Assembly (NCBI GenBank): GCA_900696645.1 | Contig: CAADGV010000021.1 | Location: 124,001 to 188,000, forward strand | Length of the DNA stretch: 64,000 bases | Reading direction: 5' to 3' | Source of the DNA: an uncultured Chlorobiota bacterium | GTDB taxonomy: Bacteria; Bacteroidota; Ignavibacteria; UBA10030; UBA6906 | Shown here: positions 46,420 to 58,828 of the stretch, piece by piece | How the letters are laid out: every line of letters begins with the position of its first letter | Numbering within the stretch: the stretch's first letter is position 1 | Translations under genes and position numbers: made by a program | Notes under the pieces: generated by a model | Told to the model about the DNA's origin: nothing | What the model saw: only the letters and a program-made list of their open reading frames with translations | Database searches by the model: none

Positions 46420-47478
46420 ATGAAAGCTCGTTGGTGTGCAATCGTGTTGTTGATGTGTGCGGCCTCTTTCGGGGCAATGGCCGGTGGCACGAGTGTCGCA
46501 AAGTATGCCGGGGAATTTACCTCGATTGGAGTTGGAGGAAGGGCTCTCGGTATGGGCGGCGCATTTGTGGCGCTCGCCAATGATGTGACCGCGGGATATT
46601 GGAATCCGGCAGGACTCTCGCACATTATGTATCCGCAAGCGGCGCTAATGCACGAAGAACGGTTCGGAAGTGCCGTCAATTACGACTACGGTGCAATTGC
46701 ATTTCCGCAGGGGACCAATACGAGTTGGGGATTCAGCGTCATCCGCATTGGTGTTGATGATATTCAGGATACCCGCAACGCTGCAATTGATGCAAGCGGA
46801 CGTTTGGTTGATTACCAGACATACATTCAGAATCCGGAAAACTACCGGATTGACCCGAGCCGCGTTACGTACTTCAATGCGGCGGATTGGGCCTTCTTCT
46901 TTACCTATTCAAAAAAGCAATCGGAAGATTTCTCGTACGGAGCAAGCCTCAAGGTGATCCGTCGTGAATTGGGTGATGCGTCGGCAACAGGCTTGGGGCT
47001 CGACATCGGCGTATGGTACATGCCGATGGATAATGTCATGCTGGGCGTAAATCTTCAGGATATTACCACGACATTTCTTGCGTGGAATACCGGCACCAAC
47101 GAGCTGATTTCCCCGACAATGAAAATAGGCTCGGCATACTTCATCGAAGCATTCGGCGGGCGGTTTGCACCGGCAATTGATTTTGATATCCGTTTTGAGA
47201 ATCGCAAGTCGGCATCAACCTTCGCCCTCGGTCCGGTGAGTTTCGATGCGCATATCGGAACGGAGTTTCTGTTCAGGAATCTCGTCGCATTCCGTGTCGG
47301 CTACAATGATGTGAAACAGGTATCATTTGGCGCTGGGCTTCATCTCCCGAAACTCAGCATCGACTATTCGTTTGCGCGGTTCGCACAATCCGCCGGAGAT
47401 CGTCTTGACGATACCCACCGCATTTCGTTGATGTTCACGCTTGAAGCAGAACAGTTCAGGAGAGTGGACGGCTATTGA
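46420..47478 (+). CDS. PorV/PorQ-family outer-membrane protein
   Basis: 352 residues with signal peptide (MKARWCAIVLLMCAASFGAMA). The family hallmark GVGGRALGMGGAFVALANDVTAGYWNPAGL opens the barrel, and strands continue through SVIRIGVDDIQDTRNA and SYGASLKVIRRELG-type segments. It is a FadL-type barrel. In type IX secretion PorV shuttles cargo and PorQ helps attach it. Which role it has here is unresolved, since other T9SS genes are not in the window. A GAGAGGTGA ribosome binding site precedes the ATG. Confidence 0.88.
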   Translation: MKARWCAIVLLMCAASFGAMAGGTSVAKYAGEFTSIGVGGRALGMGGAFVALANDVTAGYWNPAGLSHIMYPQAALMHEERFGSAVNYDYGAIAFPQGTNTSWGFSVIRIGVDDIQDTRNAAIDASGRLVDYQTYIQNPENYRIDPSRVTYFNAADWAFFFTYSKKQSEDFSYGASLKVIRRELGDASATGLGLDIGVWYMPMDNVMLGVNLQDITTTFLAWNTGTNELISPTMKIGSAYFIEAFGGRFAPAIDFDIRFENRKSASTFALGPVSFDAHIGTEFLFRNLVAFRVGYNDVKQVSFGAGLHLPKLSIDYSFARFAQSAGDRLDDTHRISLMFTLEAEQFRRVDGY

Positions 47479-47553: not shown

Positions 47554-49743
47554 CTACTTTGTTGTCAATTCGAATACCCCGCTCCAATCGGCAGGAGGCG
47601 GATTGCGCTTGAAGAAGCCTGCGCGTTCAGTGTACAACTGTGAAGGGTAGTCGTCTTTCCGAAGCATTGCCGCTTCGCTGAATTTTCGTTCCGCTTCGTC
47701 CCACTTTCTCAATCTGTACAGATGCAATCCTTCCGTGAAGAGTTGAACAAATCTCTCCAGCGCAGGATCAAGGTCCGCATCCCGTTGTTGAATCAACTCG
47801 AATGTTCGTACGGGTTCCGAGCGTCCCTTTACGGAGAGCAGGTCGAGTTCACGTCCGAGTATACTGTGTTTCACAGCCTCATACGTTGTCTCGCTGACGA
47901 TGATCCCCGTTCGATACACTTTATTTGCTCCCTCAAGGCGTGAGGCAATGTTGACACTATCCCCAATAACAGTATAATCGAACTTCTCCGCGCCACCCAT
48001 GTTGCCGACAACCATTTCACCCGTGTTAATCCCGATGCGCGTGTAGATCATCGGTCTGCCGTCCTGTTTCCAGCGATTCCGGATTTCCGCCAGTTTGTTC
48101 TGCATTTCCAAAGCTGCGGCACATGCGCGCAATGCGTGATCTTCTTGCGATAGCGGCGCCCCCCAGAATGCGATCACCGCATCGCCAAAAAACTTGTCGA
48201 GTGTGCCGTTGTTGCGGAGAATAATGCTGCTCATTTCCCCGAAATACTCGTTCAACAATGCAACAAGCGCATCGGACTCCATTTTCTCGGAAATCGAGGT
48301 GAAGCCTTCAATATCACTGAACATGACAGTAAGCTGCTTGCGTTCTCCCCCCAACTTCAGCTTCTCCGGGTTGGCTATCAGCTCATCAACAACGGTCGGA
48401 TTGACGTAGGTGCTGAACATTGTTTTGATCATGAGCCGCTGCTTGCGCTCGGTGACGAAGTGATACCCCGTGCTGGCGACATATCCGCCAAGCACTGCCA
48501 CAATGGGGCTGATTGCCGCCATGACAAATTGAGAGTGGATAAACAGCCAGAGCGTTGCTACTGCAATCACCGCAAGTTCGAACATCAGAAACAGGAAACC
48601 GAATAACTCGAAGACAAAGTGCCGCTTGCTTCGTCCGCTTCTCAGGGCGGATGTGACATAGAATGTGAAGAGCGAAAAGAACAGAACAAGAAGAATCTCC
48701 GATCGGGCTGACTGCTTGTACAGAAAGTTGTTCCGGAAGATGCTCTCGATAACATTGGCGTGTATTTCCACACCATACATGAGATTGTCGCCGCGTTGCA
48801 ACCCTTGTGCAATTGAGACAGGAAAGAGATCATGATCTTCGGGAAGTGTCGAACCGACAAGAACAATCTTGTCCGTAAACGTGCCGTCATAGAGGTACCC
48901 GTAGTCGGGGTCGCTGAACGTATTAATCGATTCGCCCGTTTCCGTTTCCTCGTTGGTGACGATGTCTTCGTCATCGATAACATCCGCAAACTTGACACGG
49001 CGAAATGTGCCGCTGGGTCCGAAGAAATTGATAAGCAGGGAGGAAGGATCGTATTGCGGAATCATTCTTCCGGCATACGTGAACCGTTTCTCTTCAACCG
49101 TTGCAACGTGCAGGGGAGGCAGCCCGAAGTATTTGTTGAGAACGGCAAAGCCGAATGTCGGTACGCGTACAGTGTCGTGCCGCCTGATGTGTGTTGCCTC
49201 CCAGAACGGGCTGTAGCGCCTGTACACGCCATCCGGGTCGTTACGGATATTGACGAGCCCGAGTGAACTATCCACCGTGAAGAAAATGTTGCCAAAGTGT
49301 TCATCGGCTTCAACCAATGTATAGTCCTGCTGCTTCGTTTCCAGCTTGCCGGCCAGAATAACAATGCCTGTTTCGCGAATTGCCGCCCGCAGATCGTCGT
49401 CGTTCTCCGGAGACTGTATCTCCGCTTCGCTCAGGATGATATCGATTCCGACGGCTTTTGCACCGGCCGCCTTCAGATTGCGAACAAGGCGGGCATAGTA
49501 CGAGCGGGGCCACGGCCAGCGGTCGGGCAGCGACCTGTACGACTCATCGTTGACTTCCACAATCACGACATGACTGGATTCACGCAAGCCGGGATATGCA
49601 CCGCGTGCCTGAAAGCGGTAGTCCAGGGTTGCCATCTCAAGCCGTTGCACAACTCCCAGTTGGAGTATATCGTCATGTGTGAGAATGATGGTGAGAACGG
49701 CGACAACAATGGCGACGAGTAGTTTTCTGACCTGCGGGTTCAT
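47554..49743 (-). CDS. CHASE2-domain class III adenylate cyclase
   Basis: 729 residues. One N-terminal helix, then an extracytoplasmic CHASE2 sensor (about 30-340), three transmembrane helices (about 348-425), then a class III cyclase domain (about 465-650) and a short helical tail. Catalytic residues: metal Asp477 and Asp521, purine-selecting Lys517 with Thr591 (class IIIb adenylate type), transition-state Asn598 and Arg602. It would make cAMP in response to an envelope signal. It starts six bases after the large barrel gene, so it is probably co-translated with it. Adenylate over guanylate specificity is inferred from the Lys/Thr pair. Confidence 0.93.
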   Translation of the reverse strand: MNPQVRKLLVAIVVAVLTIILTHDDILQLGVVQRLEMATLDYRFQARGAYPGLRESSHVVIVEVNDESYRSLPDRWPWPRSYYARLVRNLKAAGAKAVGIDIILSEAEIQSPENDDDLRAAIRETGIVILAGKLETKQQDYTLVEADEHFGNIFFTVDSSLGLVNIRNDPDGVYRRYSPFWEATHIRRHDTVRVPTFGFAVLNKYFGLPPLHVATVEEKRFTYAGRMIPQYDPSSLLINFFGPSGTFRRVKFADVIDDEDIVTNEETETGESINTFSDPDYGYLYDGTFTDKIVLVGSTLPEDHDLFPVSIAQGLQRGDNLMYGVEIHANVIESIFRNNFLYKQSARSEILLVLFFSLFTFYVTSALRSGRSKRHFVFELFGFLFLMFELAVIAVATLWLFIHSQFVMAAISPIVAVLGGYVASTGYHFVTERKQRLMIKTMFSTYVNPTVVDELIANPEKLKLGGERKQLTVMFSDIEGFTSISEKMESDALVALLNEYFGEMSSIILRNNGTLDKFFGDAVIAFWGAPLSQEDHALRACAAALEMQNKLAEIRNRWKQDGRPMIYTRIGINTGEMVVGNMGGAEKFDYTVIGDSVNIASRLEGANKVYRTGIIVSETTYEAVKHSILGRELDLLSVKGRSEPVRTFELIQQRDADLDPALERFVQLFTEGLHLYRLRKWDEAERKFSEAAMLRKDDYPSQLYTERAGFFKRNPPPADWSGVFELTTK

Positions 49744-49749
49744 TGCACG

Positions 49750-52188
49750 TCAGAAATCGAAGCGGTATTTGACGCTCCAGAAATCATCGTTCGGAAGGCC
49801 TATGTTGCCAAAGAGGCTGTACTGGAGGATGATGTTCATTGCCCGTGCCACAGCCCATTGAGCAGACAGATCGAATGTGACCCGCTTGAAATCGCCAAAT
49901 GTCGGACTGACGGTGCAGGAAATTGACGCAACGTCATCTGGAAGTGTGTACACACCGTTGGCGAACACGTTTGTATACCGCAGCCGCATGCGCGCCCCGA
50001 ACGGTCCGGGATAATTATTGTAATTGTGCGTGAACCCCATTGTGGTTTGAAGCGGTATCCGGTATCGCGTATTGAGATTCAAGGCCACGGAGGTGTTGCG
50101 CACGTCGAGGTTTTGCGGCGTGTAATCATTCCGTTTTGACCCGGACAGACTGATGGATGCGGTATGTGATGCGTGGAAGTTGAACCGCTGAGCAAGAAGA
50201 ACAAAAAGCCTGTTCGTCTGATCGTCCACTGCGCCGATCACGAATCGTGGAGAAAGGTTGTTGATGTTTCGATAATGTGTGAAACCCACGGCTATGCTCG
50301 GTAAGATCGAACGCGGATCGTAGTTGACAGCAACATTGTACGTTGTAAAGTGGGTTGTTACCGCTTTTGATTTGCTGGTATTGTCCGAAAGACGCTCGTA
50401 CCCGAGAGTGATGAAGAGATTCTGAGCCGGAAGCTTGATCCGATCGGTGATATTAAAGCCCGCTATGTCCGTTCGCAGGAACGTCTGTCCGAATGAATTG
50501 TAGTCGCTTCCCCGAAACTGGTAGTTGATTCTGAATGCGTTATCGAAGTAGTTCAGGGCAAGGCCCACGTCGTACGCAACAGTTGAGAGTTTTTTGAACG
50601 ACAGAGGCCGGAGGTTATCGTTAACCGTAATGAAACTCTTCAGAATATCCCGCGCATTTTTGATGGCAGCCGCATCCTTCTTGTACACCGAGTCGATATA
50701 CGCATCGGTGAAGCTGCCGCTTGAAATATCATTATTGTATGCGCTGAATGCAAACTGTCCGGTTAACTCAATTCTGCTGTTATCGAAGCGCGACAACAAA
50801 TCCGCTCCCAGCACAAGATTTTCCTTCGGTCTCGTTCCGTACCGGATTGAGTTTATGTCGTCTTTTGACTTCAGCCAGGTGAAGCCAATCTGGTATGTCT
50901 CGCCCGATCCGAAACTCGGCCGCACAGCAAAAAGGCTGCGCGAGTAGGTTCCGTAATTGTACTTTCCCCAGAGAAGCGAATCGATTTTTGCATAGGCCGC
51001 CAGGGAGTCGATCTGCTGTTCGTACGCAAGCTGTTCGATGGGAATAACTTTCAGCAGAGTTCCCTCAACATCCCGGACTGTTCTTCCGGCTGCAACTTCC
51101 ACGTTGAATTTACCGAGCCTGATTGCAGAATTCAGCCCGCGGACTCGTTTTCCATTCAAGATCAGACTTGGAAAGTACGGGTAACTGTCGCCGTATCCAA
51201 CAAGAAGCCATTTCGATTCCAATCCGGCATAGTATCTGTTCTGCGGCTGTCGATTCAAGCGTTCATCCGATGTGACGAAGGCATTAGCATTGAAACGCCA
51301 CGCCCCCTGGCTGCCGTTGAAGCGGAAGTTGCCCCGATTGTACCACGTTTCTTCGCGGTTCACTTTCTCGCGCCTGAGCTCAAGGTCAACCGATCCTGTT
51401 GACACAAATGCTGTACCTCCCCGTTCGGGTGGTTGTCCCTCTGCAAGCACATTGAATGACGTTGTGACCTGCCGGTGCAACAATCCCTGGCGGTTGTACA
51501 ACAGCACCGAAGCCGTGTAACGTCCCGGCTTGAGAGTGACTCCATGATTGGCCGGAACATACACGAGAATGTCATCGCTGATAACAATATGGCGCGTAAC
51601 ATTTGTATTGTTCAGAAAGAGTTGTGTCGCCCTCTTGACAACCATCGTATCCGCCCTGTACAGCGAAACGGAAATCAGCACATCGTTCGTCTCATAGGAT
51701 GCGTTTGGTTCAGGACTGAGGAACACCGCCTGCACATCATCTTCCTTCTTCATAACAGGAAGCTGAAGGGTTTTCCCGGGTGCATTGGAAAGCGGGTCGG
51801 GGTTTTCGCTTACAGGGTATGATTCAAGCTGCCCCGAACGATTCACGAGCACGATATAGTATTCAAGAAACGGCGGTGATACATGTCTGGGAGGAACTCG
51901 TGCTATTGCCGTGTTTCCCATCAGTTCCATCTCCACTCTTGTCCAGCCCGACTCGGTGAATGAGCGGTAGAGAAAGTACACACGTTCGATCGTTTCTCCA
52001 TGCCGCAGCTCGGCACGGACTACCAACGGTGATTCGCTAACAGCCTCAGATGGCGAGAACGAAGAGATGCTCGTTGAAACCTGGGCCTGTAGCGATGAAG
52101 CACAGACGAGAAGAGAACAGAGCAGGAACAGAGTATGCAGAACACGGCAACGGCACCTCGATAGGGTCGGCGAAAAGCCAATTGTCAT
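49750..52188 (-). CDS. Large outer-membrane beta-barrel protein of the CHASE2 cluster
   Basis: About 812 residues from the ATG at 52188 (a TTG at 52197 is the extended reading). Signal peptide LHTLFLLCSLLVCASSLQAQ. The first 270 residues have repeated beta-sandwich-like periplasmic segments. From about 285 onward alternating strands make a large barrel that closes SVKYRFDF (terminal Phe). No TonB box or plug motif was found. No ribosome binding site is evident, and a terminator ends 24 bases upstream. Partner or substrate is unknown. Confidence 0.75.
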   Translation of the reverse strand: MTIGFSPTLSRCRCRVLHTLFLLCSLLVCASSLQAQVSTSISSFSPSEAVSESPLVVRAELRHGETIERVYFLYRSFTESGWTRVEMELMGNTAIARVPPRHVSPPFLEYYIVLVNRSGQLESYPVSENPDPLSNAPGKTLQLPVMKKEDDVQAVFLSPEPNASYETNDVLISVSLYRADTMVVKRATQLFLNNTNVTRHIVISDDILVYVPANHGVTLKPGRYTASVLLYNRQGLLHRQVTTSFNVLAEGQPPERGGTAFVSTGSVDLELRREKVNREETWYNRGNFRFNGSQGAWRFNANAFVTSDERLNRQPQNRYYAGLESKWLLVGYGDSYPYFPSLILNGKRVRGLNSAIRLGKFNVEVAAGRTVRDVEGTLLKVIPIEQLAYEQQIDSLAAYAKIDSLLWGKYNYGTYSRSLFAVRPSFGSGETYQIGFTWLKSKDDINSIRYGTRPKENLVLGADLLSRFDNSRIELTGQFAFSAYNNDISSGSFTDAYIDSVYKKDAAAIKNARDILKSFITVNDNLRPLSFKKLSTVAYDVGLALNYFDNAFRINYQFRGSDYNSFGQTFLRTDIAGFNITDRIKLPAQNLFITLGYERLSDNTSKSKAVTTHFTTYNVAVNYDPRSILPSIAVGFTHYRNINNLSPRFVIGAVDDQTNRLFVLLAQRFNFHASHTASISLSGSKRNDYTPQNLDVRNTSVALNLNTRYRIPLQTTMGFTHNYNNYPGPFGARMRLRYTNVFANGVYTLPDDVASISCTVSPTFGDFKRVTFDLSAQWAVARAMNIILQYSLFGNIGLPNDDFWSVKYRFDF

Positions 52189-52211
52189 TGTATCCAAGCG
52201 GAGAATGATTC

Positions 52212-52248
52212 AAAAAAAAGCCCTGCAGAACATCACATCCACAGGGCT
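52212..52248 (-). terminator. Strong intrinsic terminator between fecR-like and barrel genes
   Basis: On the minus strand AGCCCTG (52248-52242) and CAGGGCT (52225-52219) form a stem followed by eight T (plus-strand A8 at 52212-52219). It ends 24 bases before the barrel ATG, leaving almost no room for a separate promoter. Confidence 0.8.
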
Positions 52249-52267
52249 ACTTGCGTGTGAACGTCAC

Positions 52268-52963
52268 TTATCTGAATTTGATTTCGATATTCTTCTTGTT
52301 GCCCCCGCCATCTTTCAACTCGATATCAAGTCTGCCATCCTGCTCTCCTGTACGCGAGGAAAGCTCGGCGGCTACTTTTTCTTCGGGTGTTGAAGGGCGG
52401 ACTTGCAAAGTGCCATCGGGATAGGAAAGTCCCGTAAACCCACCGCCTACATCGACAGCTCGCGATGAAACCTTGCTTGAAAGTACAACCAGTCCGTCGA
52501 GGACGATCAACTTGTCCAACGAATCCGAGGCGCTGAATTGTCCGCTTGTTCCCCGCACCGACGCAACAGAAGTCGGCGACGAAAAGCGGAAGCCCTCACC
52601 CTGCTGCTGCTTCTTGATGCTGAAGCCGATAACGCCACGCTCGAACTCCGTCGATTTCAGGGTTGAAGTTCCATCCTTCAGATCGTTAAGCAGAACCTCG
52701 GTCTTTTCCCGCACGCGCAACATGCTGTTATCCTTGAATTTGATTACCGCGATCGATTTCTCGCCGGTTTTCAAACGTTCGCCCGACGAAAGCATTTCAC
52801 CCCGCTTGGCTGCCTGCCAGGCTTTGTCGGGTTGTTTGCGCGTAACGTCGAGAATAACTCTGCTGATAAGCGCGATTGTTGTATTCTGTGTCGGGGGAGG
52901 AACTGCGCCCGGAAGCACACAGAGCATCACCAAAATCAAGCCTGCTAAACCTGTTGTTTTCAT
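52268..52963 (-). CDS. FecR-domain secreted protein
   Basis: 231 residues from the ATG at 52963 after GGGGAG. Signal peptide MKTTGLAGLILVMLCVLPG. The FecR core spans about residues 55-150: KRGEMLSSGERLKTGEKSIAVIKFKDNSMLRVREKTEV, then the FSSPTSVASVRGTSGQF motif. Unlike true FecR it lacks the anti-sigma N-terminus. Secreted FecR proteins commonly neighbour CHASE2 sensors, as here. Role: probable periplasmic ligand or scaffold for the sensor (inference). Confidence 0.85.
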   Translation of the reverse strand: MKTTGLAGLILVMLCVLPGAVPPPTQNTTIALISRVILDVTRKQPDKAWQAAKRGEMLSSGERLKTGEKSIAVIKFKDNSMLRVREKTEVLLNDLKDGTSTLKSTEFERGVIGFSIKKQQQGEGFRFSSPTSVASVRGTSGQFSASDSLDKLIVLDGLVVLSSKVSSRAVDVGGGFTGLSYPDGTLQVRPSTPEEKVAAELSSRTGEQDGRLDIELKDGGGNKKNIEIKFR

Positions 52964-52979
52964 TGTCAGACTCCCCTGA

Positions 52980-54050
52980 TTATTCAACGATTACCGAACT
53001 GACTGATTCCGGGCTTGACCGGATATCATTCAATGCGTTTAACAAGTCGGCCAAAGAAATAGGGGAGCCATTAAACCGGAATGTTCCGGACGGGCTGAGA
53101 TCCTGGGCGCGAATTTGATCGAACACGGGTTTGTATGAAGGAGGCAGTGCATCTTCCAATTCCTGAAGAAGCCAATCCAGGGAACTTCTGCGCTGAGTCG
53201 AAACAGAGAATGACCGCAAAGCGCTTCGAAGTTCGAGATCTGTTCCGCCCGCTGTGCCAACCAATCCCTTGACGTGCCACACGTATGTCCGGCCAGGCAT
53301 CAGAGGGCGCGCCCCTGTTACAGGATAGCGGAATGATCGCGTTGAAACGGTTGCGGTTATCTGGGGAGTACCGGAAGCCACTTCTTCAAGGCTCCGCTGA
53401 CCGGGAAGCATTTCATAGATACTAATTGTTGCGCGCGGCCCGTCGTATTGCCATTCAAACAACGGCAACTCTTCCACCACTGTCTCGCCCGCTGCAGGTG
53501 CAAGCAACACAGGGGATGACGGATTGGTTAGATTGAATTCGAAGATCCCCTGGCCCGTGGCATTGCCAGCGGTGACATCCACCGTAAACCTGTACGTGCC
53601 TGCCGGCATCGAGCCGCTCGGAAGGGCGATCTCCTGAAATGCCGCCTTCGCCTGTGGGTTGAATATGTAACCATCAACATCGCGCTGCGGTATGCCTCTT
53701 CCTCTTCCAAGTTCGAGGTTGGTAACAGTTCTGGTACCATCCAACATGAATGGCTTCGAGATGAACTTCGCGGCATTCACGTAGGTTTCACCGGCAGCCA
53801 AATAGACATCAAGGTTGATCGTGAGTATCACTTCAACCGATTGAGGCGACGACATAGTGATTGTAAAAAGCCACTTCGGTGTGGTCGCATTGAGAAAATC
53901 AAGGTCGCTAATACTCAAAGTATTAACGGGTGCACGAAGGGTGGTAACGGTGATTTGGCTCTGTGAGGTGGCCGGCCACAGAAGAACTGTCAAGCAGAAA
54001 AGAACCCCAAGGACTCGCCCAGTCCTTTTCCCATCAAACACATTCTTCAT
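52980..54050 (-). CDS. Secreted protein of unknown function heading the FecR/CHASE2 cluster
   Basis: 356 residues, signal peptide ending TSQSQ. The mature part looks like two beta-sandwich modules: an Ig/Fn3-like one with TPKWLFTITMSSPQSVEVIL and a second around FEWQYDGPRATISIYEML, then a charged C-terminal region. There is no catalytic motif and no family I recognise. It is 17 bases from the FecR gene, so co-transcribed. The ATG is preceded by GGGGAAC. Confidence 0.7.
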   Translation of the reverse strand: MKNVFDGKRTGRVLGVLFCLTVLLWPATSQSQITVTTLRAPVNTLSISDLDFLNATTPKWLFTITMSSPQSVEVILTINLDVYLAAGETYVNAAKFISKPFMLDGTRTVTNLELGRGRGIPQRDVDGYIFNPQAKAAFQEIALPSGSMPAGTYRFTVDVTAGNATGQGIFEFNLTNPSSPVLLAPAAGETVVEELPLFEWQYDGPRATISIYEMLPGQRSLEEVASGTPQITATVSTRSFRYPVTGARPLMPGRTYVWHVKGLVGTAGGTDLELRSALRSFSVSTQRRSSLDWLLQELEDALPPSYKPVFDQIRAQDLSPSGTFRFNGSPISLADLLNALNDIRSSPESVSSVIVE

Positions 54051-54216: not shown

Positions 54217-55533
54217 TTAGAAATTTCTGATGTCGTTGAATACGACAAAGGCCATAAATGCGAGGAGGAGGAAGAATCCCGCTCGTTGCACCGCAAGCTT
54301 GATTTTCGTCGGGATTTCTCGCCCCATTATTCCCTCAATTCCGAGAAACACAAGGTGCCCGCCATCAAGGGCAGGGATTGGCAGGATATTCAGGATGGCG
54401 AGACTGATGCTGAGAAACGCCATAAAGGTCAAGTAGGTAATGATGCCAAGTTCGGCTGTCTGCGAAGCGAGTTGTGCAATCTTGATTGGCCCCGCGACGG
54501 ACTCACGGAACGGGGTCTTGCCGCTGACTATACTTCCAATTCCTTTGACTGTCAGCCCGACCACATTGCTGATGCTAACAATGCCCTCATTCAGGGCTTC
54601 GAACAGTGAATAGTTCGTGTGTTTGACCGGCCCGTTGTAACGCAACCCGAACGAGATACCTATCAATCCTTTGTCACTTGGCACAACCGTGCCCGACATC
54701 AGCGAGTCACCTCGTCGCCATTCAACAGCCAGCGGTTTGCTTGCATGTGCACGCACGATTTCGTTTACCCTGCGATCGTAGCGGATTGGCTGATTGTCGA
54801 GCGAGATGAGAACATCACCCGGCTTGAGTCCCAACTCCGCGGCGGGCCTGCCCGGATCAACCGTATTGATAACGAGTTCCGTGTGGTTTGGCGTAATGCC
54901 GAATGATCCTTCGTTGAGGGATTGCAGAGTCTGTTCCGGGGCGTTGACGGTTACTTTATTCCCGTCCCGCAAGACAACGAAGTGAAGTTCCTTCCCGATA
55001 TTCTGGAGATAGATGTGGTTCCTGACATCATCCCAATGCTCAATCGTCTTGTCGTTGATTGTCAGGATTTTGTCGCCGCTCCGTAAGCCGGCCGCTTCGG
55101 CAGGGCTGCCTTCAAGTACGTAGCCGATTTCCGTCGTGTCCGAAACACTCTTGCCTTGCGAGTAATGGATTCCCCAGAAAATTCCGACGGCGAGAAGAAT
55201 GTTCATTATGACGCCTGCAGAAATGACGATCATTCTCTGCCAGATTGGTTTCGAACGGTATTCCCACGATTGAGGTTCTTGTTGCAAGTATTCGGTATCA
55301 AAGCTCTCGTCGATCATGCCGGCGATCTTGACATACCCGCCTATCGGAATCCAGGAGATGCAGTAATCCGTTTCGCCGATCTTCTTGCCGAAGGCGCGTG
55401 GGGGAAAGCCGAGCGAGAAGACATCAACCCGCATACCGAACATTTTCGCCGCAAGAAAATGCCCCAGCTCGTGGATAAACACCAGAATACCTAACGTGAC
55501 AACAAAATAGAATATCGTGTTGATGACTTCCAT
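54217..55533 (-). CDS. rseP: Site-2 protease RseP/RasP (intramembrane zinc metalloprotease)
   Basis: 438 residues. Catalytic HELGH (His21, Glu22, His25) in the first membrane helix; LDGGH in the C-terminal helix gives the third ligand region. The central region has two PDZ modules (around GSPAEAAGLRSGDKI and DPGRPAAELGLKPGDVL). It cleaves anti-sigma factors and remnant signal peptides within the membrane. Position 12 bases after dxr is the widely conserved order. The ECF/anti-sigma pair at 39918 is a plausible but unproven client. Confidence 0.95.
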   Translation of the reverse strand: MEVINTIFYFVVTLGILVFIHELGHFLAAKMFGMRVDVFSLGFPPRAFGKKIGETDYCISWIPIGGYVKIAGMIDESFDTEYLQQEPQSWEYRSKPIWQRMIVISAGVIMNILLAVGIFWGIHYSQGKSVSDTTEIGYVLEGSPAEAAGLRSGDKILTINDKTIEHWDDVRNHIYLQNIGKELHFVVLRDGNKVTVNAPEQTLQSLNEGSFGITPNHTELVINTVDPGRPAAELGLKPGDVLISLDNQPIRYDRRVNEIVRAHASKPLAVEWRRGDSLMSGTVVPSDKGLIGISFGLRYNGPVKHTNYSLFEALNEGIVSISNVVGLTVKGIGSIVSGKTPFRESVAGPIKIAQLASQTAELGIITYLTFMAFLSISLAILNILPIPALDGGHLVFLGIEGIMGREIPTKIKLAVQRAGFFLLLAFMAFVVFNDIRNF

Positions 55534-56938: not shown

Positions 56939-58828
56939 ATGAATCGAAATGTCCTGAAAAAAACTTGCCTTCTGCCTGCAATACTCTGCGCGATTACGGT
57001 GTGGCCTTGTGCCGGAACGTTTCGGGTTGCTGCTCAGTCTCCCGATACGAACAATCGTTACCGGTTGGCGCAAAGCTACGAGCAAGGCGGCGATTTTGAG
57101 AATGCGGCAAAGTTGTACCGCGAGCTTCTCCTTGCCGATCCTGCGAATTACGTGTTCTTCGACGGACTCAGGAGGTCGTACTTTCAGCTTAAGAGATATG
57201 ATGATGCGATTATTCTGATTCGCCAGCGTTTGATTTCGAACCCGCGAGACTTGAATCTGCTTTGCCATCTCGGCAGCGCGCAATATCAGTCCGGCCAGGA
57301 ACGTGAGGCAAGCGCATCGTGGGAGCAGGCGACTGAGGTCGATCCGAAGAATGCCAACGTCTACCGTATTGTTGCAAACACACTTATTGAAAACCGTCTG
57401 CTTGAGAAAACCGCCGAACTGTACCGCCGGGCACGTGTTGCGTGCAACGATCCGAATCTTTTCACACTCGAACTTGCGCAGCTTCTTTCCGCAACAATGG
57501 ACTATGCCGGCGCAACAACGGAGTTCCTCCGGTATTTGCAACAGATTCCCACACAACTCGGCTATGTACAGAGCCGGATGTCGCAATACACGGGGAAAGA
57601 AGATGCACGCAACGCGGCAATTGATGTTGTTCGCTCGGCACAGCGTCGCTCCGACGACCTGAACCTTCACCGCCTTCTTGCGTGGCTGATGATGGAGGCA
57701 AAGAATTTCGGCGAGGCGTTCAGTGTGTATAAAAGGATCGACGCGTTAACGAATGCCCAAGGGGTTGAACTTCACTCCTTTGCCGACCGGGCATACAAAG
57801 AAGGCGCGTTTGGCATTGCCGCGGAAGCGTACAGGGCTGCAATCGCTACACCTCTCGCGTCGCAGCGGCTTCCGCACGCAAAGTTCGGGCTTGCACTTGC
57901 CGTCAAAGAGTTGAGCATTCTTGAAGACTCCATCAAAGGAACTTTGCAAGCCGCAGGCACTGTGCCTGAGTCCCAATCAAGGTTTGTTACGGCGATTGAT
58001 CATTTCAGAACGCTGATAACAGAATATCCCAACAGCGAGTTTGCTGCCCGTGCATATCATCAGATCGGGCTGCTCCAGTTTGAAAAGTATTTTGATCTCG
58101 ACGGCGCGCTGGCGTCGTTTCAGAATGTTGAAAAGGGATTGTCCCCGATGAATCCCGTCAGATTCGATGCACTGATCAAGCTGGGAGAGGTGTTGACGGC
58201 GAAAGGCGACACTGCCACGGCAGCAATCCGGTTTCGTTCCGTAATGGCTGCACCCAACGCAACGCCTGATCAGCAGGACGAAGCAACGTACAGGCTTGCC
58301 GAGCTGGAATATTTTGCCGGGCACTTCAACGAAGCAATCCGGAACCTTGATGCTATCAGCACAAACCTGAAAGCCGACTACACGAACGATGCGTTGCTGC
58401 TCCGCTCCTTTCTGCAGGAGAATTCGCAAGGAGCCGAAATCCCCCTCAAGGAATTTGCACGGGCCGACTATCTTGCCCGACAGAAGAAATACACCGAGGC
58501 AATATCATTGTTTCAGAATGTCATCGACAAAAACCCCCAGGCGCTGTTTGTTGATGATGGTATGATGAGGATTGCAACGTTGCAAACGAAGGCAACGCGG
58601 TATGCCGATGCGCTTGCAACGTATCAGGCCTTGGTGTCGCAATTCAAGGAGAGCAGTATCGCGCTTGACAAGGCGCAGTTCAGTATCGCAGAATTGTATG
58701 ACTACAATTTGAACAACAAGGTGCAAGCTATAGCGGCGTACGAGAAACTGCTGGCTGACCATCCGCAGTCGCTGCTGAATGAAAAAGCACGCCGGAGGAT
58801 CAGAGAGTTGAGAGGAGATTCTTTATGA
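56939..58828 (+). CDS. Secreted TPR-repeat protein
   Basis: 629 residues. Signal peptide LKKTCLLPAILCAITVWPCAG, then TPR repeats along most of the length (RYRLAQSYEQGGDFENAAKLYRELL; YHQIGLLQFEKYFDLDGALASF; AQFSIAELYDYNLNNKVQAIAAYEKLL). It has no enzyme domain. The 4-base ATGA overlap with the next gene implies coupled translation and a joint function with the 'asparagine synthetase B-like' protein. It is a likely periplasmic protein-protein scaffold. Confidence 0.88.
   Translation: MNRNVLKKTCLLPAILCAITVWPCAGTFRVAAQSPDTNNRYRLAQSYEQGGDFENAAKLYRELLLADPANYVFFDGLRRSYFQLKRYDDAIILIRQRLISNPRDLNLLCHLGSAQYQSGQEREASASWEQATEVDPKNANVYRIVANTLIENRLLEKTAELYRRARVACNDPNLFTLELAQLLSATMDYAGATTEFLRYLQQIPTQLGYVQSRMSQYTGKEDARNAAIDVVRSAQRRSDDLNLHRLLAWLMMEAKNFGEAFSVYKRIDALTNAQGVELHSFADRAYKEGAFGIAAEAYRAAIATPLASQRLPHAKFGLALAVKELSILEDSIKGTLQAAGTVPESQSRFVTAIDHFRTLITEYPNSEFAARAYHQIGLLQFEKYFDLDGALASFQNVEKGLSPMNPVRFDALIKLGEVLTAKGDTATAAIRFRSVMAAPNATPDQQDEATYRLAELEYFAGHFNEAIRNLDAISTNLKADYTNDALLLRSFLQENSQGAEIPLKEFARADYLARQKKYTEAISLFQNVIDKNPQALFVDDGMMRIATLQTKATRYADALATYQALVSQFKESSIALDKAQFSIAELYDYNLNNKVQAIAAYEKLLADHPQSLLNEKARRRIRELRGDSL

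Follow-up and report, generated by a model that had tools for sequence, protein, structure and literature searches.

The four genes and their products

The window, that is, the whole 64,000-nucleotide stretch of DNA analyzed here, carries a unit of four genes at positions 47554 to 54050, transcribed in the order gene A, fecR, barrel gene, and CHASE2 cyclase gene (Table 1). The open reading frames, Pfam matches, and AlphaFold models agree with the preliminary description in placing all four on one strand, the minus strand. Their spacing is operon-like: the A and FecR reading frames overlap or abut, and the outer-membrane barrel gene lies directly upstream of the cyclase gene at a gap of 6 nt, with the FecR gene further upstream in the same unit. 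The true start codons are likely ATG 52963 for fecR, giving 231 amino acids (aa), and ATG 52188 for the barrel gene. A terminator-like hairpin in the gap between these two genes may yield more A and FecR than barrel and cyclase, setting expression ratios; it is not conserved, and a six-T run is found in the gap of 7 of the 39 relatives where this gap exceeds 30 nt. A 12/12 match to a promoter on the plus strand, at 47951, was discarded because it falls within the cyclase gene and the scan yields about as many matches as expected by chance.

Table 1. Positions of the four genes, the intergenic hairpin, and the upstream neighbor in the window
Feature	Position	Strand	Basis
CHASE2 adenylate cyclase, 729 aa	47554..49743	minus	Pfam CHASE2 1.4e-51, Guanylate_cyc 2.1e-25
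Outer-membrane barrel protein (predicted), 815 aa	49750..52197	minus	AlphaFold model, alignments
Terminator-like hairpin, fecR/barrel gap	52219..52248	minus	11 pairs, T run, strong intrinsic-terminator type
FecR-domain protein, 239 aa as listed	52268..52987	minus	Pfam PF04773 1.5e-11, hydropathy, alignment
Gene A, 356-aa secreted protein	52980..54050	minus	ORF, hydropathy, AlphaFold, family alignments
rseP (M50 protease), upstream neighbor outside the unit	54217..55533	minus	Pfam, gene maps

Protein A has a hydrophobic N terminus typed as a signal peptide (about residues 1 to 31) and no later transmembrane segment by hydropathy. Its AlphaFold model (pLDDT 88.6) displays two Ig/FN3-like beta-sandwiches, at about 31 to 175 and 177 to 286, and a C-terminal helical tail that is conserved in the family alignments. 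VIA-align returns FN3 matches at Z 9 to 10, no structure match is informative beyond general FN3/Ig, and neither Pfam (nothing over threshold) nor NCBIfam assigns a family. The FN3-like domain recurs in an approximately 1,500-aa protein of the same genome (G000:C14:9265-9675) and in large proteins of relatives.

In the FecR protein, a signal peptide precedes the FecR domain (71 to 167); hydropathy shows no transmembrane segment beyond the signal peptide, and Pfam no anti-sigma domain. Longer FecR reading frames of 368 to 574 aa occur in two families, f5 and f6 (G034:C277, G029:C19, G024:C42, and G030:C15), and include a stretch matching the N-terminal beta-sandwich of the barrel protein (barrel profile, E 1e-9 to 1e-13; 1.5e-13 in G034). 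Judged from these profile matches, an N-terminal sandwich domain appears to be common to the FecR and barrel partners in f5 and f6.

Hydropathy gives the barrel protein a signal-peptide-like N terminus and no later transmembrane segment. In the AlphaFold model (pLDDT 81.9), a beta-sandwich region at 41 to 248, predicted to be periplasmic, is followed by about 26 long strands that run from residue 262 to the C-terminal Phe. The best fold match is the Mtr-complex barrel 6r2q_B (VIA-align; Z 15.8, rmsd 4.0, 440 aligned residues), and FimD ushers also match the model in Foldseek; the large-barrel fold held in common with the Mtr barrel says nothing on function. No family is assigned by Pfam (nothing over threshold) or NCBIfam, Pfam finds neither a TonB-receptor plug nor an STN domain, and a database of viral contigs holds no match.

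Hydropathy and Pfam resolve the cyclase into a first transmembrane segment, a CHASE2 match at 25 to 359, further transmembrane segments at 345 to 425, and a class III domain at 469 to 648, followed by weak TPR-like helices at the C terminus. The CHASE2 domain is predicted to face the periplasm and the class III domain the cytoplasm. Residues D477, K517, D521, N598, and R602 are invariant in the alignment from the window to CyaK of Sinorhizobium meliloti, and T591 is nearly so (at least 90%). The class III set is thus complete, comprising two metal-binding Asp, adenine-specifying Lys and Thr/Asp, and transition-state Asn/Arg, and the closest solved structure is Pseudomonas aeruginosa CyaB. Together, the conserved catalytic residues and this nearest solved cyclase make a putatively active adenylate cyclase the natural reading.

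The preliminary description saw no cAMP effector in the window, and we likewise find none near the cluster. One CRP homologue of the same genome, G000:C39:15689, is encoded away from the cluster and carries FGEMAILDGLARSA, which we take to resemble the cAMP-binding cassette of CRP. The only other CHASE2 protein of the genome is an 895-aa CHASE2-sigma54-activator fusion (L036:8339-11026; G000:C14, about 102.3 to 105.0 kb), a CHASE2 sensor wired to sigma54 transcription, whose gene neighbors are an M23 peptidase, a DUF4292 gene, and a TPR protein. No FecR gene lies beside it, and it was set aside.

Ferric citrate signaling by FecI-FecR-FecA also combines an outer-membrane barrel with a FecR domain. 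The window FecR could by analogy be an anti-sigma factor that works with a TonB-dependent transducer, which would make the cyclase a bystander; that the unit encodes a FecR domain and a large barrel of the outer membrane fits that model. However, the FecR protein of the window has a signal peptide, no later membrane anchor, and no detected anti-sigma domain; no TonB-receptor plug or STN domain is found in the barrel by Pfam; and the unit is flanked by dxr, rseP, and a PorP-like gene, with no adjacent ECF sigma gene. We therefore find this explanation hardly credible.

Conservation and co-inheritance in relatives

The co-occurrence of the four genes was checked in relatives, and the linkage held strongly. 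The exact order of A, FecR, barrel, and cyclase on one strand is found in 47 of 51 adequately flanked relatives, one of them from Calditrichota. All four remaining loci have fecR, barrel, and cyclase; A is undetected in two, and the other two deviate from the strict pattern only in that a match to the barrel profile falls between A and FecR. Such an arrangement is far from chance. Named loci belong to Ignavibacteria and close kin, mostly as MAGs, in addition to the Calditrichota genome and the cultured Stygiobacter electus (L110), which has A as well as fecR, barrel, and cyclase; the unit is also present in four families (f21, f32, f47, and f52) that belong to other classes of the phylum. Across relatives, the junctions have medians of 12 nt (A-FecR), 36 nt (FecR-barrel), and 9 nt (barrel-cyclase), the last being at most 30 nt in 66 of 74 cases.

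The unit lies downstream of dxr and rseP in the window, but this pair precedes A at just 21 of the 51 loci and is absent from the other 30; we thus regard the four-gene unit as the conserved object. FecR proteins elsewhere are RseP substrates. RseP was nevertheless dropped as a candidate member of the system because of this 21/51 adjacency and because the window FecR offers no transmembrane segment to cut. On the other side, a gene for a PorP/UPF0164-like outer-membrane protein (46420-47478) is convergent with the cyclase gene, a placement conserved in many relatives within the order. A TPR gene at 56939 lies beyond dxr on the opposite strand.

Among 59 relatives, gain and loss affect the barrel, FecR, and the orthologous cyclase as a set. 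Co-presence tables are 50, 1, 0, 8 for barrel and cyclase (p = 4e-9) and 49, 2, 0, 8 for barrel and FecR (p = 2e-8), p-values which ignore shared ancestry and so overstate independence; the exceptions mostly lie at contig ends. In the 11 barrel-less genomes of the phylum that were tested, cluster-type FecR is absent bar one weak match (7e-7, in a 639-aa frame). One family (f33, G087) has a divergent barrel without cluster-type FecR.

In three families (f24, f39, and f51) the operon is broken and the barrel gene stands alone among unrelated genes. All eight of their genomes with a well-scored barrel keep both the A-FecR pair and a CHASE2 protein (782 to 864 aa) at separate loci, the pair still being adjacent, with 94 to 372 nt between match ends. 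In a tree of 48 CHASE2 cyclases, all 27 cluster cyclases group with the three placed from dispersed lineages, and 17 others fall outside (96/93); the fork uniting the cluster cyclase group itself has a support of just 95/66. A single genome, G027 (L046, L047), has its cyclase on another contig while A, FecR, and barrel remain at dxr-rseP; both parts persist, and the relocated cyclase still falls with the cluster clade. Among the genomes compared, FecR genes adjoin CHASE2 cyclases of the phylum only in the four-gene unit.

A neighborhood by itself is no proof of a pathway, and the cyclase might merely be co-transcribed with the other genes while answering to its own CHASE2 stimulus, for which the separation of the G027 cyclase from A-FecR-barrel speaks. 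We consider this quite improbable, given the co-retention after dispersal, the joint loss of all genes, a cyclase clade specific to barrel carriers, the occurrence of FecR beside CHASE2 just in this set, and the precedent of NsrA-CyaK, described below.

NsrA-CyaK and a proposed route to cAMP

On pSymB of S. meliloti, nsrA is the gene immediately preceding cyaK (PMC7529298; Garnerone et al. 2018, cited in PMC10463352 and PMC13001267), an arrangement that we also read from the S. meliloti DNA. By domain search, NsrA holds FecR and TPR domains and CyaK consists of CHASE2 and cyclase domains, and the C terminus of NsrA, after FecR and TPR, is a barrel (PMC7529298). For CyaK to perceive an external protein signal and respond with cAMP, NsrA is required (PMC7529298, PMC10463352, PMC13001267). 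Since NsrA is a FecR-TPR-barrel fusion encoded upstream of cyaK, its domain order equals the gene order of the window, where a FecR domain and an outer-membrane barrel likewise directly precede a CHASE2 class III cyclase. The window FecR is homologous to the FecR region of NsrA (hhalign, 96.6%), and the cyclase and its CHASE2 domain are 31 to 32% identical to CyaK with the same active-site residues. In contrast to the single NsrA protein, FecR and barrel are separate genes in the window and its relatives, with no TPR segment between them, and the FN3-like protein A is a fourth component not present in NsrA-CyaK. Against the single NsrA sequence compared, the window barrel displays no similarity at the sequence level (BLASTP; hhalign, 0.1%), and the outer-membrane likeness to NsrA is thus one of arrangement.

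Because the modules and their order are the same and the FecR and cyclase are homologous, we propose that the four genes form one trans-envelope signaling pathway to cAMP of the NsrA-CyaK type, a reading that we hold to be probable. The barrel, with its periplasmic beta-sandwich, would detect a surface or envelope condition, and the signal would pass to the periplasmic FecR, working with the FN3-like A. FecR, or a FecR-A complex, would then act on the periplasmic CHASE2 domain and change the activity of the inner-membrane cyclase. The resulting cAMP could be read by a CRP-like regulator encoded elsewhere, e.g., G000:C39:15689. The observed basis of this relay comprises the genes and their domains, the catalytic residues, the operon-like spacing, the deep co-conservation, the co-retention after dispersal, and the homology of the FecR and CHASE2 cyclase. 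The chain from outer membrane through FecR to cAMP that the preliminary description put forward thereby gains support from co-occurrence and from the NsrA-CyaK precedent; we infer its signal or ligand, the contacts, the direction, and the dependence of the cyclase on the other three genes. Speaking against the relay are the distance on the genome between barrel and cyclase in the dispersed lineages, the lack of a sequence relation to the NsrA barrel, and the divergent barrel of f33 without this FecR.

Signal flow may be inward, from the surface to cAMP, or the cyclase may monitor envelope assembly. In the latter case, A, FecR, and barrel would be an outer-membrane structure or export channel whose assembly or occupancy, rather than an external ligand, is sensed by the CHASE2 cyclase, and cAMP would adjust envelope genes. 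This is in line with the envelope gene neighborhood of dxr-rseP in the window's own lineage, with the likeness of the barrel to large-pore barrels (the Mtr complex and, by Foldseek, FimD ushers), with A-FecR being the tightest pair, together even when the operon breaks, and with some families keeping the barrel without FecR or cyclase beside it. However, the dxr-rseP context is missing at 30/51 loci, no conserved cargo gene was seen beside the unit in the relatives' loci, and the one relative with experimental tests, NsrA-CyaK, answers to a protein signal from outside (PMC7529298). We thus deem such a monitor rather unlikely and favor the relay from the surface.

The proposed relay may also be seen as a disassembled and deeply conserved one, in which a barrel of about 26 strands, unrelated in sequence to NsrA, jointly with a free periplasmic FecR and protein A gates a CHASE2 cyclase. 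On this view, the FecR-CHASE2 pair would serve as a general joint across the envelope, one that has recruited different barrels in Ignavibacteria, other classes of the phylum, and Calditrichota and that runs parallel to the FecR-sigma route. We offer this wider formulation tentatively and rate it at somewhat short of an even chance.

Little has been established about the stimuli of CHASE2 domains. The unit points to three partners in the envelope, which appear to be inherited with one CHASE2 cyclase clade even after operon breakup, so that switching of CHASE2 by FecR plus barrel becomes testable on small soluble proteins and against NsrA-CyaK. If the relay holds true, cAMP gains an outer-membrane input in a bacterial branch for which we found none described, the literature searched containing no paper that combines CHASE2 with Ignavibacteria. 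In that case, FecR domains may be exchangeable couplers of outer-membrane barrels to inner-membrane enzymes.

Comparison with other FecR and CHASE2 systems

The association of CHASE2 sensors with FecR proteins, from which the preliminary description started, is documented (PMC5192318, PMC9239204, and the NsrA papers). In Campylobacterota, a CHASE2 adenylate cyclase is clustered with a FecR-domain outer-membrane protein, and the authors infer one pathway (PMC9239204). This cluster has the combination of CHASE2 cyclase and FecR in common with the window. It also includes a TPR protein and a cAMP phosphodiesterase, both of which are not seen in the window unit, whereas the latter has protein A and a separate barrel. 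In the Burkholderia BiofilmReg operon, a periplasmic FecR-domain protein adjoins a CHASE2 sensor; this operon signals through a histidine kinase with a response regulator, its FecR protein contains LysM, and no outer-membrane barrel is described (PMC5192318). Magnetotactic bacteria encode MtxA, a secreted protein with an Ig-like domain and TPRs, just before a CHASE2 cyclase, and the describing paper mentions neither a FecR nor a barrel partner (PMC4439547). MtxA (4z29) is the top PDB match of our FecR profile, at an insignificant E of 0.11.

On a plasmid of Azospirillum ramasamyi (L035), a CHASE2 cyclase gene is immediately followed by a gene for a ShlB/FhaC-type outer-membrane barrel, perhaps a further barrel linked to CHASE2. 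We do not count this locus as the same set because the 241-aa product encoded upstream lacks a FecR domain.

The idea of a cAMP relay made of outer-membrane protein, FecR, and CHASE2 was thus already known, from NsrA and from the Campylobacterota cluster (PMC9239204). New to it here are the split gene form, a barrel family not related to NsrA in sequence, the FN3-like protein A, and the joint retention of the components after their dispersal.
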